Origin: Anaerococcus degeneri
GTDB taxonomy: Bacteria > Bacillota > Clostridia > Tissierellales > Peptoniphilaceae
Reading direction: 5' to 3'
Length of the DNA stretch: 64,000 bases
NCBI RefSeq assembly: GCF_017874475.1
Contig: NZ_JAGGLO010000001.1
Coordinates: 248,001 to 312,000 of the forward strand
Of this stretch, positions 3,113 through 42,473 are shown one piece after another. The translations under genes were made by a program, and so were the position numbers. The notes under the pieces are model-generated. The model was not told where the DNA came from and searched no databases. It saw only the letters and a program-made list of their open reading frames with translations. Positions within the stretch are counted from its first letter, which is position 1. Each line of letters opens with the position of its first letter.

Positions 3113-3838
3113 ATGAAACATATAAAAGAAATGTTACTTATAGGCCTAATAGTTTTTGGAGGTATTTTTCTAAAGGCATCTGGTTCTATAGGACAAAAAG
3201 ATTATGAAAACGAACTAAGGGACAAGAAGGCCAAGGTGGAAGAATACTTGGGTCAAGTAGAAGGAGTGGAGAAAGAATTTGTAGAAAAAATTCTAAACCA
3301 CCAGGACAAAAATCCAAGCGTGGCTGTATTCGAAATTACAAATGTAGACACAGGTGAGTCTTACAAAAGAATACAGGCTAGTGATAAGGAAAATAAAATT
3401 GAAATTGGCGGTAGACTTGATGATACAATCTTTTTTAGAAAAGGCAATGAAAGATTTTGGATAGATCCAAGTAAAAAAATTTATTACACAGATACTTTTG
3501 ATTACAGCAAAAATCCAAAAGAGCCTTCTATTATTTCTAGTAATGAACATTGGATTTACGAAAAATTCCTAAGTGGCTATGACAAAGGTATCGAAAAAAT
3601 TGGCGACACCTATAAGGTGACTTGCCTTGATGATTTAAACAAGGGCTCTTATGATATTTACGACCTAGAGGGAAATTGGCTAGAATCTTTCACCGACAAT
3701 AGCCAAGGAAGATGGAAGGAAGTTCTTGTTTCAGAAACTACAGATGTTAATGAAATATACGAAAAACTCCTAGACCTAAAAGATACCTATACAAGGGTTG
3801 ATGATTTAGGTCAAATAAAAAACAAAGGTAAGCAATGA
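3113..3838 (+). CDS. Membrane-anchored extracytoplasmic protein heading the Bce-type operon
   Basis: A 241-residue protein preceded by a strong AAGGAGG site. It opens with a short basic segment and one hydrophobic stretch (about residues 7-24), consistent with an uncleaved signal anchor; I see no lipobox Cys. The rest is hydrophilic, rich in Lys/Asp/Glu/Tyr, and would lie outside the membrane. I do not recognise the family. Its stop codon overlaps the start of the downstream ABC ATPase gene (ATGA), so it is translationally coupled to a Bce-type transporter. An accessory role such as binding the peptide antibiotic or helping sense it is inference from position only. Confidence 0.65.
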   Translation: MKHIKEMLLIGLIVFGGIFLKASGSIGQKDYENELRDKKAKVEEYLGQVEGVEKEFVEKILNHQDKNPSVAVFEITNVDTGESYKRIQASDKENKIEIGGRLDDTIFFRKGNERFWIDPSKKIYYTDTFDYSKNPKEPSIISSNEHWIYEKFLSGYDKGIEKIGDTYKVTCLDDLNKGSYDIYDLEGNWLESFTDNSQGRWKEVLVSETTDVNEIYEKLLDLKDTYTRVDDLGQIKNKGKQ

Positions 3839-17701: not shown

Positions 17702-18937
17702 ATGCAAGAAGTTATACAAGTCAACGTCCTAGGAAAGGATGACGACGAAGAAATAAAAATATATGAATTAGAATCCCTGATTAACACTGCAGGTGGAAAG
17801 TCTGTTGCCTTTGTAAGCCAAGTGGTAACTAAGGTTAACCCTAGGTTTTATATTGGCAAGGGCAAGCTTGAAGAGATTAGGGATTTGGCAAATAAATTAG
17901 AAGTAAAGACCATAATATTTGATGTGGAGCTATCAGCCAGTCAATTATATAACCTAGAAGAAGAGTTAAAACTCAAGGTTGTTGACTGGACATCTTTAAT
18001 TTTAGATATTTTCGCCCAAAGAGCCCACACCAAGGAAGCAAGGCTTAAGATAAAACTAGCCCAACTTAAATACCAACTACCAAGGATAAATAAGTGGTTT
18101 GCATATCTTTCACGTCAGGCAGGGGGCATTGGTACCAGAGGTCCAGGTGAAACCATGCTTGAGACCGATAGGAGGGCTATTGAAAGGGATATCAGGTCCC
18201 TAGAAAAAGCCCTTAAGGATGTAGAAAAAACCAAGCGTTTAAATCGTAAATCCAGGGATGGCACTTATAATATTTCCCTAGTTGGTTATACAAATGCCGG
18301 CAAGTCTACGATTTTAAATGGAATGATGAAATTATTTGGGTTAGAAAAATATGTTTATTCTGACGATCTTCTTTTCGCAACCTTAGATACGTCAACAAGA
18401 CGCCTTGATTTTTCAAATACCAAGGTCACCCTTACAGATACAGTTGGTTTTATTGATAACCTATCAAAGGAATTAAATGATTCCTTTCTTACAACTCTAG
18501 AAGAAATCAAGTTTGCTGATATGCTCTTAATTGTAATTGATTCTTCAAATAATATAGAAGGGCAAATTTCAACTATAGATAAGTCCCTATCCGAAATTGA
18601 GATGGACGATAAGGAAATTATCTACGTTTTCAATAAGATGGATAGGGTCAAGGATGATACGGCGGTTTCTTTGTATAAAAGAGACTATGAGAGGATTTTC
18701 ATCTCGGCTAAGGATGACAATGACCTTGAGAGTTTAAAAGAGGAGATTGTAAAGGTCATCAAGGAAGATTACAAACAAGTGAGAATGCATATTCCTTTTT
18801 CTAAGGGATCAGTCCTTGATTATTTTATGACCAATTACGACATCCTAAAGACAGATTATGATAACGAGGGGACTATTATTGACCTTGAGATAAGTAAGGG
18901 AGACTATGGTAAGTATGAATCCTACATCAACAAATGA
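17702..18937 (+). CDS. hflX: Ribosome-associated GTPase HflX
   Basis: A 411-residue GTPase of the Obg/HflX superfamily. The N-terminal HflX domain has FYIGKGKLEEI and IFDVELSASQLYNLEE; the central segment has GGIGTRGPGETMLETDRR, the family signature. The G domain has G1 GYTNAGKST, G3 DTVGFI and G4 NKMD. HflX binds the large ribosomal subunit and helps split stalled or stress-arrested ribosomes. It is divergent from the PBP gene and its 3' end overlaps the IMPACT-family gene by about 30 nt. Confidence 0.95.
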   Translation: MQEVIQVNVLGKDDDEEIKIYELESLINTAGGKSVAFVSQVVTKVNPRFYIGKGKLEEIRDLANKLEVKTIIFDVELSASQLYNLEEELKLKVVDWTSLILDIFAQRAHTKEARLKIKLAQLKYQLPRINKWFAYLSRQAGGIGTRGPGETMLETDRRAIERDIRSLEKALKDVEKTKRLNRKSRDGTYNISLVGYTNAGKSTILNGMMKLFGLEKYVYSDDLLFATLDTSTRRLDFSNTKVTLTDTVGFIDNLSKELNDSFLTTLEEIKFADMLLIVIDSSNNIEGQISTIDKSLSEIEMDDKEIIYVFNKMDRVKDDTAVSLYKRDYERIFISAKDDNDLESLKEEIVKVIKEDYKQVRMHIPFSKGSVLDYFMTNYDILKTDYDNEGTIIDLEISKGDYGKYESYINK

Positions 18938-38198: not shown

Positions 38199-39959
38199 CT
38201 ATACATATAATTCTGCCTGGGTGGTGAACATTTCTTTATAAAGTCCATCCTCTTTCATGAGTTGATCGTGGGTACCGTTTTCTGTGATTTTTCCATCGTC
38301 ACAAACAATTATCCTGTCAGCATACTTGGTAGATGATAGTCTGTGGGAGATGAAAAGGGATGTTTGACCTTTGGAAATTTTTAGCATATTTTCAAAGATT
38401 TCCTGTTCGCTCCTTGGGTCTAGGGCACTGGTTGGCTCATCCATTATGAAAAATTTCCCCTCATGGAAGATTGAGCGGGCAAGGGCAAGTTTCTGGCCTA
38501 TTCCTCCTGATGGTTCGACTGACTTATCTGAGAATAGATAAGTTAGGAAAGTATCTTCTTTTTCTACTTGCTTTCCTATCCAAGATGATAAATTGAGAAG
38601 GTCAAAGGCCTTATCCATTTTTTTGTATTCACCATCATCGATATTTTCCTTCAATTTACTTGTAATATTTTCACTAATCCTAAATGGAAATAGCCTAAAG
38701 TCTTGGAAGGTAGGGGATAGGATCTCATAGTATTTCTTAGTTGAAATCTTAGAAATATCTATATCGTTTAGGTAGATAGCCCCTTCGGTCGGTTCGTAAA
38801 ATTTACACAAAAGTTTTACAATAGTAGATTTACCAGCCCCGTTTTTGCCTACAAGGGCCAGGGTCTCTCCATTTTTTATTTCAAAAGAAGCATCTTTTAG
38901 GACATAGTCCTTACTTGCTGGATACTTAAAGGATACATTATCAAATCTAATCCTAATTTCACTTGTGTCAATATCGGTGATTTCTCCCTTATCAAGTAGG
39001 CCTTCTTCCATATCTAGGAAGTTGAAAAATACTTCTAATTGAGCATTTACTGAAATAACCTTGGCGTAGTTTTGCTGGATGAGGTTAGTTGCGTTTATGA
39101 CTTGTATTAGGGAGTTAAAGTACATGGTAAAATTTGCAAGGCTAATGGTCTTATCGATTAATTTATAGGTTAGGTAAATTAAAGTTAAGATTATTGAGCC
39201 ATTTGCACTTACATTCATAATACCAGAGTAAATTCCATTTTTGTTGAAGTAATCAGTTGATGATTTTATCATTTCTTGTTGGTAGAAGTCTGCTTTTTCT
39301 AGGACCAAATCTTGTCCTTCATAGATTTCTATATCCTTAAAATACCTAAGATCTGCTGCAAATTTTGCAAAAAACCTATATGATCTGAGATCTGAAATAT
39401 TATTTTCTTGGTATTTTAGTTCATTTTCCTTAATTAGCCTTACGAGTTTTTTATTTATTAAAACTAGCAAAATCAATAGAATAATTATTGCTGGATTTAA
39501 TTTTACAAGAATACCTAGTGATAAAATCCCCGTTATAACAGCGGATATTACTAAAACTATGATGTCATAGAGGGTGTACATTTCCCAAACAGCATAGTGG
39601 GCCTGTTCCATCATATCTTGAACATCCTTGGAGTCAGATTTTTCTATAGGAAGCCTTAAAGATTTTTTTGCTATCCTAAAAGTGAGTTTATCTGACATAT
39701 CTTCAAAGACTAGGGTCAGGTAATTATTTAAGCCCCTGTAAGTTACTTCTTTGATGAAACCTAGGACTATAACCAAAAGGCCAAGGCCTAGACAAAATGA
39801 AATTCTTTTTTGTCCCATAAGCTCATCTATAATTAGCTTTGGAGCGAAGATATTTATAAGAGGCAAGAACCCAAGGACTAGGTTTGTTATAATGACCTTG
39901 AAGGTAAAACCTGGGTGGTAGGTGTCTATTAATGTAAAAAGTTTTCTTATATTTTTCAT
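38199..39959 (-). CDS. ABC exporter half-transporter B (variant signature motif)
   Basis: A 586-residue exporter subunit: about six membrane helices in the first 310 residues, then an NBD with Walker A GKNGAGKST, Walker B FIMDEPTSALD and H-loop ISHR. The signature reads PSGGIGQKLALAR instead of LSGGQ, so one of the two composite ATP sites is altered, as in many heterodimeric exporters. It overlaps the partner gene by 4 nt. Drug, peptide or lipid export cannot be told apart from sequence. Confidence 0.9.
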   Translation of the reverse strand: MKNIRKLFTLIDTYHPGFTFKVIITNLVLGFLPLINIFAPKLIIDELMGQKRISFCLGLGLLVIVLGFIKEVTYRGLNNYLTLVFEDMSDKLTFRIAKKSLRLPIEKSDSKDVQDMMEQAHYAVWEMYTLYDIIVLVISAVITGILSLGILVKLNPAIIILLILLVLINKKLVRLIKENELKYQENNISDLRSYRFFAKFAADLRYFKDIEIYEGQDLVLEKADFYQQEMIKSSTDYFNKNGIYSGIMNVSANGSIILTLIYLTYKLIDKTISLANFTMYFNSLIQVINATNLIQQNYAKVISVNAQLEVFFNFLDMEEGLLDKGEITDIDTSEIRIRFDNVSFKYPASKDYVLKDASFEIKNGETLALVGKNGAGKSTIVKLLCKFYEPTEGAIYLNDIDISKISTKKYYEILSPTFQDFRLFPFRISENITSKLKENIDDGEYKKMDKAFDLLNLSSWIGKQVEKEDTFLTYLFSDKSVEPSGGIGQKLALARSIFHEGKFFIMDEPTSALDPRSEQEIFENMLKISKGQTSLFISHRLSSTKYADRIIVCDDGKITENGTHDQLMKEDGLYKEMFTTQAELYV

Positions 39960-41695
39960 AGGACCTCCTTATAATTGTCTGCTTGTAGATTGTAGAGGTC
40001 TTTATAATCCTCGCAAGTATTCATCAGCTCATTATGAGTCCCATTTGCGAGAATCTGGCCGTCTTTAAGATGAATTATCCTGTCACAAAACTTGGTAGAC
40101 GCCAGCCTGTGAGAGATAAAAATCGAAGATTTATCGCGGGTCAAATCGTCATAGAGCATATAAAGCTCTCTTTCATTTAGAGCATCCAACTGAGCTGTTG
40201 GCTCATCTAGGATTAAAAGCTTAGCCTTGGATTTTGCAATGGCGCGGGCCAAAAATAGCCTTTGCTTTTGGCCACCTGATAGGTCGACTCCGTCATTATC
40301 GAGAATCCTCAAAAGAGTTTGGTCTTCTTTTTTATCATAGGTATTTATGATTTCATCTAGGTGGGTCATTTTGTAAATATCATCCAAATTCCTATCGTCA
40401 GTTGACATTAGGATATTTTCCTTAAAGGAAAATGGCAATAGATTTGAATCTTGAAAGACAGCTGAGATTAGCTTTTTATAGTCTATATGAGATTTATTAA
40501 TATCTTCTCCATTTATTAAAATCCTACCTTCTGTCGGCTCATATAGACCTGCGAGGATAAGGGCGAGTGTAGACTTACCTGCACCATTTTCCCCTACAAG
40601 GGCGATTGTTTCTGAGTCTTTTATCCTAAGGTTAATATTTTCTAATACATATGCATCTGTTCCCGGATATTTAAAGGAAACATTATCAAGAATAATTTCC
40701 ATCTGGTCTGGATAAATTTCTTGATTTTCGTCTTTGTAAACTTCAGTTATCTTAAAAAATGGCTTAAACATGGTAAAGTTTCTCCTAATATCAGAAAAAA
40801 CCCACATGGTCTGATGGTTAAAGGCAATAAAGGTAAAGATTGCTGTAAAATATACATAGAAATTCGCTATAGAAATCCTCCCTGCAATAAGACCTGTCAT
40901 TAGCCAGTATATGATAAGTCCGTCCCTGATTAGGTTAAATACATTTGCTAGGGTAAAAATCCTAAGGGTCTTTGTATTAACTTCTCCTAGGCGGTTTATC
41001 CTATCCTTGTTGGTTTTTCCGTAATAGGATTTAAAAATCCTTATGATATCAAAAATTAAAATATCTTGCTTTGATAGGGGAGATTTCATCTCATTATTAA
41101 GCTTAGAAAACTTATCCCAGTTTGGACTCATTTCATCCCAGTACTTGTCATAAGACTTAGGAACTTGGTTTAAAAGTAACCAGGAAATTATGGTTAGAAT
41201 TATTGTTGTAGCAAGAACCCAAAGGTCCATAGAAGCAAAAATCCATAAAAATCCACCAATCGAAATAAGAAGGGCAAAGACTTCTGGTAAATCCATCATT
41301 ATGCCACCAACACCGCCCCAAGGCGATTCTACAGCCTTCATGGCATCACTTATTTTTTCGGATTCTGCTTTTTCTTTTTTCTTGGCATAAGGGAGATAGA
41401 GTGAGTACTCTGTGATCATATTCATCAGCTTATAGCGGACGTGGTTCATCCTCATCCTATAATTGCCCATAACAAAGGCATCAAAAAAGCTAATTAGTGA
41501 AGAAATAAAAAATAAGCCTATAAAAAACATTGGGAAAACTTTAGGATTTTCCTGGTAGTTTTCTAAAATATAGGCAGGTGAAATAATCCATAAGAAGGGT
41601 TTGATCCCTACAAATAGACCGTAAAGTGCGATTAGTAAAAACATGATTGGCTCCATATGAGCCATCTTTTTAATCAAAAATTTAAATTCTTTCAT
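39956..41695 (-). CDS. ABC exporter half-transporter A (canonical NBD)
   Basis: A 579-residue exporter subunit with six membrane helices and an NBD with Walker A GENGAGKST, signature LSGGQKQRLFLARAI, Walker B LILDEPTAQLD and H-loop ISHR. It pairs with the following subunit, whose signature is degenerate. The ribosome site AAGGAGG is 19 nt from the ATG, which is too far, but a TGCCGA/TCGGCA hairpin fills the gap and would bring them together. Upstream is a 12-codon leader peptide with switching hairpins, so expression is probably controlled at translation by something affecting ribosomes. Confidence 0.9.
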   Translation of the reverse strand: MKEFKFLIKKMAHMEPIMFLLIALYGLFVGIKPFLWIISPAYILENYQENPKVFPMFFIGLFFISSLISFFDAFVMGNYRMRMNHVRYKLMNMITEYSLYLPYAKKKEKAESEKISDAMKAVESPWGGVGGIMMDLPEVFALLISIGGFLWIFASMDLWVLATTIILTIISWLLLNQVPKSYDKYWDEMSPNWDKFSKLNNEMKSPLSKQDILIFDIIRIFKSYYGKTNKDRINRLGEVNTKTLRIFTLANVFNLIRDGLIIYWLMTGLIAGRISIANFYVYFTAIFTFIAFNHQTMWVFSDIRRNFTMFKPFFKITEVYKDENQEIYPDQMEIILDNVSFKYPGTDAYVLENINLRIKDSETIALVGENGAGKSTLALILAGLYEPTEGRILINGEDINKSHIDYKKLISAVFQDSNLLPFSFKENILMSTDDRNLDDIYKMTHLDEIINTYDKKEDQTLLRILDNDGVDLSGGQKQRLFLARAIAKSKAKLLILDEPTAQLDALNERELYMLYDDLTRDKSSIFISHRLASTKFCDRIIHLKDGQILANGTHNELMNTCEDYKDLYNLQADNYKEVL

Positions 41696-41697
41696 AG

Positions 41698-41713
41698 TGC
41701 CGAAATCTCGGCA
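41698..41713 (-). promoter_or_regulatory. Hairpin between the Shine-Dalgarno and start codon of the ABC exporter
   Basis: TGCCGA/TCGGCA stem with a four-base loop occupies all but two or three bases between AAGGAGG (41715-41721) and the ATG (41693-41695). Folding shortens the effective spacing to a functional length. Confidence 0.7.
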
Positions 41714-41715
41714 TC

Positions 41716-41759
41716 CTCCTTGGTTTTCATATGTAAGTCAAGGAGCTATCCTTACTTAC
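41716..41759 (-). promoter_or_regulatory. Switching hairpins of a translational attenuator
   Basis: In the mRNA, GTAAGT-AAGGA (41749-41759) pairs with TCCTT-G-ACTTAC (41733-41744): 11 bp with one bulged G and a TAGC loop. The segment CTCCTTG (41739-41745) in the right arm is also a perfect 7-base complement of CAAGGAG (41716-41722), the exporter's ribosome site. The two pairings exclude each other. The left arm begins in the stop codon of the leader peptide. Confidence 0.7.
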
Positions 41760-41797
41760 TAGTTACGGGTTTTCTTTCCTATTTTTATTATTGTCAT
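41759..41797 (-). CDS. 12-residue leader peptide upstream of ABC exporter
   Basis: ATG at 41797 follows AAAGGAG at a good distance and opens MTIIKIGKKTRN, then TAG. A strong ribosome site for such a short frame, placed between a consensus promoter and the switching hairpins, is the pattern of regulatory leader peptides of antibiotic-resistance genes. The hairpin starts at its stop codon, so a ribosome at the end of the peptide would decide which structure forms. Confidence 0.65.
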   Translation of the reverse strand: MTIIKIGKKTRN

Positions 41798-41828
41798 TTT
41801 TCTTTTCTCCTTTCTTTAAACTTTTAAT

Positions 41829-41857
41829 AATTTACCGCAACAAGGTAAAAGTGTCAA
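41829..41857 (-). promoter_or_regulatory. Promoter of the leader peptide-ABC exporter operon
   Basis: On the minus strand TTGACA (41852-41857), 17-bp spacer, TAAATT (41829-41834). It lies just after the stop codon of the gene at 41862, so the exporter has its own promoter. Confidence 0.7.
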
Positions 41858-41861
41858 ATTC

Positions 41862-42473
41862 TTATCTACCAGCGGCAAAAGAAATAATTGTATTTTTTCC
41901 TTCTTTTCTAGTATCTAAAACCTTAAATCTTCTTATTTTGTAGGTATTATCAAAATTAATATAAGAATTAATCACAGTACCAAGACCAGCCACTTCTGTT
42001 ATTCCAGCCTTCGTAGTGATAGGTAGGTTGGAATCGATGGCGTAGTTTATCATCTCATCAAAAAGCTCAGGATCAATGTCTGATGTGTATTTAAGCAGGG
42101 TAATATAGGCCTTGTCTTCGCTTAGAAATAAGTTTGTTTTAACATTACCATAAAATCCCTCTAGGAAAATTTGAAAGAGGATGTAGGCGGTATTGTAGGA
42201 TAGGTTTCTGTATCTTAAAGCCTTATCAACAACTAATTCGATTGTATCGTCTGTGTATTTGCCCTTTACAGAAATAAGGTCCTTGCCTTTATTTTCCTTT
42301 ACTTCAACAACTTCAAGGCCTCCTGCAGTCTTGTAATCGTTTATCAAAAAATCATCACTAGGCATAAAGATTGTTTTTTCTACTAGAAGCTGGCTGATAT
42401 TATTTTTAAATCTCTTATCTTTCACTTCTGCGGTGAAAGTTAAAATCTCTGGATATTTTTCGTAAATTTTCAT
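41862..42473 (-). CDS. Possible AlaX-like (tRNA editing fold) protein without metal ligands
   Basis: A 203-residue soluble protein. I cannot place it firmly. Its order of segments recalls AlaX/AlaRS editing domains: TIFMPSDDFLINDY...GGLEVVEV near the start (compare D-T-FYP-GGGQ-D-G), NLSYNTAYILFQIF in the middle (compare HTA-HLL), and GLGTVINSYINFDNTYKIRRFKVL with a final IISFAAG (compare CxGTHV...I...F-AG). The zinc ligands HxxxH and CxxxH would be replaced by N and V, so if related it is not a standard editing hydrolase. GAGGAGA precedes the start. Treat as hypothetical. Confidence 0.5.
   Translation of the reverse strand: MKIYEKYPEILTFTAEVKDKRFKNNISQLLVEKTIFMPSDDFLINDYKTAGGLEVVEVKENKGKDLISVKGKYTDDTIELVVDKALRYRNLSYNTAYILFQIFLEGFYGNVKTNLFLSEDKAYITLLKYTSDIDPELFDEMINYAIDSNLPITTKAGITEVAGLGTVINSYINFDNTYKIRRFKVLDTRKEGKNTIISFAAGR

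Follow-up and report, generated by a model that had tools for sequence, protein, structure and literature searches.

A putative leader-frame switch at the ribosome site of an ABC exporter gene pair in Anaerococcus

Introduction

Does the short frame that lies ahead of two ABC exporter genes in Anaerococcus degeneri control their translation, and does a ribosome on this frame open or close the exporter's ribosome site? An earlier note on the window (the 64,000-nucleotide stretch of DNA analyzed here) had proposed a translational attenuator at this place and had left its sign uncertain. In attenuators of the erm and cat type the default state is off, and a stalled ribosome opens the Shine-Dalgarno sequence (SD). 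In those of the trp and his type a ribosome at the leader stop codon masks segment 1 and turns expression off, and an early stall turns it on.

Results

Two exclusive pairings ahead of the exporter genes

The features of the locus are collected in Table 1. The consensus promoter described in the earlier note is present with its 17-nt spacer, but such sites are not in excess (a promoter scan returned 22 sites against 23.2 expected from shuffles), so that its support is its position and not its score. Judged by its -10 box, transcription would begin near 41822. Directly upstream, at 41862-42473 on the minus strand, lies the gene of a 203-aa protein with a weak match to AlaXM (alanyl-tRNA editing) below the cut-off; four bases separate its stop codon from the -35 box.

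The 12-codon frame with its strong ribosome site was found where it had been described, as was the 11-bp hairpin beginning at its stop codon. This hairpin, H1, consists of 11 pairs and one bulged G, has a predicted energy of -9.8 kcal/mol (0 of 200 shuffles were that low) and begins with the last base of the leader stop codon. Its CTCCTTG segment is perfectly complementary to the CAAGGAG of the exporter SD, and because CTCCTTG is needed both by H1 and by the SD-closing hairpin H2 the two pairings are mutually exclusive, as had been claimed. When the whole leader is folded, H1 and the spacer hairpin H3 are formed, AAGGA of the SD is unpaired and the next two G are weakly paired below H3; the energy of this fold corresponds to a z score of -1.96 and 5 of 200 shuffles were as low.

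Of 50 genes picked mechanically from the window, 3 have a perfect 7-nt complement of their own SD upstream, namely the exporter and 2 of the 49 others, so the pairing by itself is not very rare. The two others, at 3113-3838 (+) and 17702-18937 (+), the second HflX-like by eye, are probably due to chance. A known Rfam riboswitch or leader family was rejected, since nothing in the 64-kb window reached the gathering score of an Rfam model. Another short frame, MPRFRHYERI, which overlaps the start of the exporter, was dropped because its ATG is absent in several of the related loci described below (L006-L009, L018-L020 and L024-L029).

The two subunits are adjacent TMD-NBD half transporters that both match MsbA-type models below the model cut-offs; in Pfam the ATPase domain of subunit 1 was matched and its membrane domain was not. 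Two neighbouring half-transporter genes thus lie downstream of the leader, consistent with the heterodimeric exporter proposed earlier, their pairing being putative. We infer drug export as the role of this pump. Genes for a TetR and an HTH regulator lie downstream of the exporter genes, less than 2 kb from their end.

Table 1 Features of the exporter locus in the window
Feature	Position	Strand	Remarks
Exporter subunit 2	38199..39959	(-)	586 aa; 4-base overlap with subunit 1
Exporter subunit 1	39956..41695	(-)	579 aa; MsbA/P-glycoprotein-like half transporter
Spacer hairpin H3, TGCCGA-GATT-TCGGCA	41698..41713	(-)	Between SD and AUG; -8.6 kcal/mol, 0/200 shuffles that low
Exporter ribosome site (SD) CAAGGAG	41716..41722	(-)	Complementary to CTCCTTG
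SD-closing hairpin H2 (CTCCTTG with CAAGGAG)	41716..41745	(-)	-7.6 kcal/mol, 0/200 shuffles that low
Hairpin H1 (anti-anti-SD)	41733..41759	(-)	Contains CTCCTTG; foot at leader stop codon
Anti-SD CTCCTTG	41739..41745	(-)	3' arm of H1; common to H1 and H2
Leader frame MTIIKIGKKTRN	41759..41797	(-)	12 codons; stop TAG 41759-41761
Leader-frame ribosome site AAAGGAG	41807..41813	(-)	Read from sequence
Promoter-like pair TTGACA-N17-TAAATT	41829..41857	(-)	10/12 consensus; -35 41852-41857, -10 41829-41834, spacer 17

Conservation of the leader across the genus

Subunit 1 was used as a query in 61 genomes, 31 of them from Anaerococcus. A close copy of the exporter (L001-L029) is present in 29 of these 31; G015 carries a broken copy and G013 none that is close. 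The relatives from named Anaerococcus species (4 loci) are 87-93% identical. The leader is kept at 27 of the 29 intact exporter loci and at the broken one (L089, G015), giving 28 leaders in all. L021 and L022 have an intact exporter without leader or switch, so that the case named in the earlier note as evidence against the proposal, an exporter that has lost both the short frame and the pairing, does occur, but at 2 of the 29 intact loci only. In the exporter tree both are placed inside leader-bearing groups, on long branches. With an outgroup the tree needs three changes, two of them forced by well-supported branches, and the leader was looked for and not seen at the outgroup locus L030. On this tree the history of the leader fits one gain followed by one or two losses. 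At the leader-less locus L022 a long AT-rich hairpin reaches the SD region in the predicted fold and is a possible replacement control.

All 28 leaders have A(A/G)GGAG ahead of the leader ATG, a count that is not independent because the script located the frames through this site. The frames are 12 (10 leaders), 13 (1), 14 (12), 15 (3), 16 (1) or 27 codons long (1, L026) and end in TAA (15), TAG (12) or TGA (1). By script, the first base of the stop codon lies between 8 nt before and 1 nt after the foot of H1 in 26 of the 28; this becomes 27 when L016 is counted by its core helix (at -1 as in its near-copies; the script had extended the helix to -10). L026 is a true exception, since its 27-codon frame reads through H1 and does not stop there. 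H1 is part of the best fold of the H1-to-AUG stretch at 26 of 27 loci; in the best fold of L026 the SD is closed.

The 31 Anaerococcus genomes contain the pattern CTCCTTG-N8..30-CAAGGAG at 28 places, of which 24 are at this exporter; the backward control pattern is found at none. It is this genus-wide conservation, and not the single sequence of the window, that places the leader arrangement beyond chance. The exact 7-nt pairing is found in 24 of the 28 leaders and is shorter or altered in L019, L020, L024 and L089; at the broken locus L089 the SD has also changed. The two exclusive pairings of the earlier note are retained in the relatives although the sequences differ. Within types H1 varies little (none of the 12 pairs in alignment A3 has changed on both sides, and two pairs are broken in one row, L024). 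As MAFFT misaligns H1 between types, covariation was counted on type D only and not genus-wide for H1. The type of H1 and the exporter tree are discordant at L006, whose exporter groups with that of the window (L001-L005) and whose H1 is of the other type (L007-L009, L018), as if leaders had been exchanged.

A spacer hairpin between the ribosome site and the start codon

The third hairpin, H3, was absent from the first description of the locus. It is found behind the SD in 21 of the 27 leaders with intact exporters, and none is clear in L006-L009 and L019-L020. In 14 leaders it has stems of 4-6 pairs that differ in sequence (TGCCGA/TCGGCA, GTGGGA/TCCCAC, GAGG/CCTC, GCGG/CCGC, GTAGGA/TCCTAC, AGCC/GGCT and GCCAG/TTGGC); the seven near-copies L011-L017 have GCC/GGC only. 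The H3 of L023 was taken from the H1-to-AUG fold and not from the scripted row. Changes on both sides affect 3 of the 5 H3 pairs in type D, a number reached by 34 of 500 shuffles (mean 1.4); the covariation score of type D was reached by 6 of 500.

GGAG and AUG are 16-23 nt apart in leaders with H3 and 4-11 nt apart in those without; in the scripted rows, subtraction of H3 leaves 4-8 nt. Where the SD lies far from the AUG, H3 would take 11-16 nt out of the gap and let the SD act at normal spacing. Phage T4 provides a known case of a hairpin bridging SD and AUG.

Predicted effect of a ribosome on the leader

To place the ribosome on the leader codon by codon, the RNA was masked to 15 nt from the first base of the P-site codon and the remainder was folded. 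The probability that the SD is open, P(open), was obtained per codon for 26 rows (L029 was left out), and the comparison of opening energies covers all 27 loci, the ribosome of L026 being positioned manually at the H1 foot. With the ribosome at the last codon, P(open) is 0.00 in all 25 short-frame rows, L026 being the odd row. Ribosomes on early codons leave the SD mostly about as open as in the free RNA; in L025, L027 and L028, however, they lower P(open) from 0.33-0.35 to 0.05-0.14. In the free state P(open) ranges from 0.02 to 0.79, and the SD is partly paired in L011-L017 (0.02-0.16), L010 (0.06) and L023 (0.08).

Opening the SD costs 0.1-2.8 kcal/mol with codon 5 in the P site and 4.0-10.3 kcal/mol with the stop codon in the A site, a rise of 3.3-9.9 kcal/mol that occurs at 27 of 27 loci (L026 hand-placed). 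When the spacer was shuffled the mean rise was about zero, and the observed rise was reached by 0 of 200 shuffles at 24 loci, by 1 at L009 and by 2 at L008 and L020. The footprint was varied at 12 chosen loci, and at all 12 the sign is unchanged from 13 to 19 nt, with L010 and L011 dropping to 1.2 and 1.9 at 19 nt. Shorter footprints turn L007 negative (at 11 and 9 nt) and bring L023 close to zero (at 9 nt).

In this model a finishing ribosome is predicted to close the exporter SD and an early-stopped one to leave it open, the reverse of erm, cat and toiL; a default-off SD opened by a stalled ribosome was not obtained. The scenario that the earlier note had considered, in which H1 forms by default, the SD is free and a ribosome on the leader shuts it, is what the folding gives for late positions.

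Variation of the leader peptide and alternative readings

The conservation expected for the MTIIKIGKKTRN frame applies to the frame but not to its residues, which vary across leaders, and a conserved leader peptide was rejected. In the three groups that vary, the variable columns at codon positions 1, 2 and 3 number 6, 6 and 3; 2, 1 and 1; and 1, 4 and 5. This count leaves out seven single leaders (L006, L010, L018, L023, L024, L026 and L029), and two further near-copy groups are invariant. Variation thus has no bias to third codon positions, which argues, with small numbers, that the position of the ribosome and not the peptide sequence is the signal. L089 was kept outside the peptide comparison and L026 outside the motif count. 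The motif +X+, which is a macrolide-arrest motif, was counted in 13 of the 21 different leader peptides, a weak excess over shuffles (mean 9.2, with 2.3% reaching 13).

A classical drug-induced attenuator, in which the SD is closed by default and opened by a drug-stalled leader ribosome as in erm, cat and toiL, is built from parts of the same kinds. The +X+ motif in 13 of the 21 peptides would suit it, and so would the 7 of 26 rows (L007-L010, L018-L020) in which middle-codon ribosomes open the SD about 2- to 10-fold beyond the free RNA. Yet the part of H1 that a leader ribosome can mask is the 5' arm, the competitor of SD closing, so that late positions close the SD, and the best fold of the free RNA has H1 and not H2 at 26 of 27 loci. 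Moreover the peptide is not conserved and 8 of the 21 lack +X+, and we consider this reading unlikely.

A second alternative is a peptide-specific arrest at the leader end, where a ligand would hold the ribosome at the stop codon and keep the pump off until the ligand is gone. Asn is the last or next-to-last residue in 23 of the 28 leaders (the exceptions are L006, L010, L018, L026 and L029), and such an arrest would solve the problem of release that is discussed below. However, the 28 leaders represent few lineages, Asn makes up 24% of the leader residues after Met and no other residue is conserved throughout, which makes a specific arrest distinctly unlikely. The frequent Asn before the stop could nevertheless matter for lasting repression. 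At or just before the leader end, (C/A/T)GT-AA(C/T) is found in 17 of the 28 leaders (41759-41770 in the window) and encodes Cys, Ser or Arg followed by Asn.

It is quite improbable that a protein or a small RNA binds the region as a conserved 5' UTR and that the short frame is incidental: H1 and H3 are conserved structures and the TetR and HTH regulator genes lie within 2 kb beyond the end of the exporter genes, but the start, the stop at the foot of H1 and the strong ribosome site of the frame are kept while its residues change. Transcription attenuation of the bmrBCD or patAB kind, which controls other heterodimeric exporters of Firmicutes according to the cited parts of two reports (PMC4191407, PMC4319486), was rejected as very improbable because H1 has no U run and the window scan found no intrinsic terminator between the promoter and the exporter start, the nearest same-strand site starting at 41664, inside the gene.

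Distribution of the leader beyond this locus

Two leader models were used for the searches. R1 was built from 13 leaders, its structure being a compromise between two types; types B and E lie outside the leader models. In 130 genomes of the family R1 gave at least 70 bits only at its 13 training leaders. It next matched the exporter leaders of G021 (24.0 bits) and G018 (23.1 bits), neither of them used for training, and below these came background. In 31 genomes R2 found its 7 training leaders, the leader of the broken locus in G015 (86.8 bits, not used for training) and that of G002 (39.3 bits). Neither these models nor the pattern searches found the leader before any other gene. In the genome of the window a DNA search returned no second copy, and none was seen before a second exporter pair (L085). 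The same leader was not seen by eye in the stretches upstream of the exporters of six relatives outside the genus (L080-L084, L087). Two of these, from other genera (L083 in G041 and L087 in G060), have an 11-codon frame that starts four bases before the exporter start and overlaps the exporter.

Outside the genus the CTCCTTG/CAAGGAG pattern occurs at 20 places in 99 genomes, and its backward control at 5. Six of the 20 (L058-L060, L062-L064) were inspected by eye and set aside as terminator- or operator-like hairpins or chance. Three of them (L058, L059 and L060), in 3 of 3 genomes of genus g31, contain a CTCCTTGA/TCAAGGAG inverted repeat ahead of a further ABC exporter half gene, which looks like an operator or a hairpin. 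Among the four remaining places within Anaerococcus, which are not at this exporter, there is a hairpin at the SD of another ABC gene: at L061 (G023:C12:15711-15745, minus) the SD of a different ABC ATPase gene is covered by the hairpin CTCCTTGC...GCAAGGAG. This stretch recurs at G022:C55:13662-13696, the identity of the gene having been read in L061 only. Within the searches made, the putative switch is seen only before this exporter and in Anaerococcus.

Discussion

We propose that the exporter is controlled by a translational attenuator with reversed logic, in which a ribosome at the end of the leader shuts the exporter SD, and we assign this reading a probability of roughly 60%. The attenuator of the earlier note is thus well supported as a leader-frame switch, by conservation, the stop codon at the hairpin foot and the exclusive pairings, but its direction in the model is the opposite of that of Erm and Cat. 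Three RNA segments are involved, namely the 5' arm of H1, CTCCTTG and the SD, of which the middle one can pair with either neighbour. H1 would form when the RNA is free or carries a ribosome on early codons, and the SD would then be relatively open. A ribosome at the last codons or the stop would cover the 5' arm of H1 with its footprint, thereby freeing CTCCTTG to pair with the SD and shutting exporter translation. Healthy cells would load the leader heavily and a ribosome would be near the stop much of the time, so that the pump would stay low. Early stalling or failed loading, as may be caused by ribosome-targeting drugs or starvation, would leave the stop region empty, so that H1 would form and the pump would be made. 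The leader residues would be free to vary since only the position of the ribosome would count. That a ribosome-targeting drug is the signal is our inference.

In its wider form this proposal makes the leader a peptide-independent gauge of ribosome traffic, in which completed leader rounds would repress the pump and an early block or lost initiation would derepress it; here we see the odds as about even. H1 (-9.8 kcal/mol) is stronger than H2 (-7.6 kcal/mol), and the SD should therefore reopen after release of the ribosome unless the next ribosomes arrive soon or the fold formed early is retained. Lasting repression would thus need ribosomes in close succession, their slow release, or a structure that folds early.

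Compared with trp- and his-type attenuators, the Anaerococcus leader would switch a Shine-Dalgarno sequence and not a terminator, and it has no run of codons for a single amino acid. Several other systems share parts of this design, as far as the cited portions of their reports describe them. The toiL-topAI leader of E. coli likewise has a short frame and an RNA pairing that controls the downstream ribosome site, and senses several drug classes without one fixed stall site, but the default there is a closed ribosome site that a stalled ribosome opens, whereas the Anaerococcus leader is modelled as the opposite (PMC12121999). In B. subtilis the bmrB frame also precedes a multidrug ABC exporter, bmrCD; faster leader translation lowers expression and slowed translation raises it (PMC4191407). 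The bmrB leader contains a transcription terminator, in contrast to the Anaerococcus leader, which would switch the SD and in which the scan found none, and its expression falls when bmrB translation is abolished, where we predict the opposite (PMC4191407). The vmlR leader of B. subtilis combines a frame with an SD-closing hairpin, but is terminator-based, has a tripeptide frame and serves an ABC-F factor, not an exporter (PMC9226507). The actinobacterial LEU element has a candidate leader frame and an RNA pairing with the SD of the gene; it differs in that the SD-pairing segment is the codon run of the leader itself, and its authors prefer a binding protein over leader translation (PMC1262725). 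In the patAB attenuator of S. pneumoniae a leader structure also controls a heterodimeric ABC exporter, but through a Rho-independent terminator, and no leader frame is found in the cited part of its description (PMC4319486). Among the matches listed in a search of open-licence full texts, nothing was found on an Anaerococcus exporter leader or on this SD topology before an exporter. Leader-frame attenuation as such is already known.

If the leader does act as a gauge of ribosome traffic, it would represent the logic of the trp attenuator moved from a terminator to a Shine-Dalgarno sequence throughout the genus, with a ruler hairpin that restores the spacing of the SD in most leaders. Its logic would be opposite to that of textbook resistance attenuators, and loss of leader translation should raise expression and not lower it. 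One peptide-independent RNA switch would then let many kinds of translation block induce an export pump in Anaerococcus.
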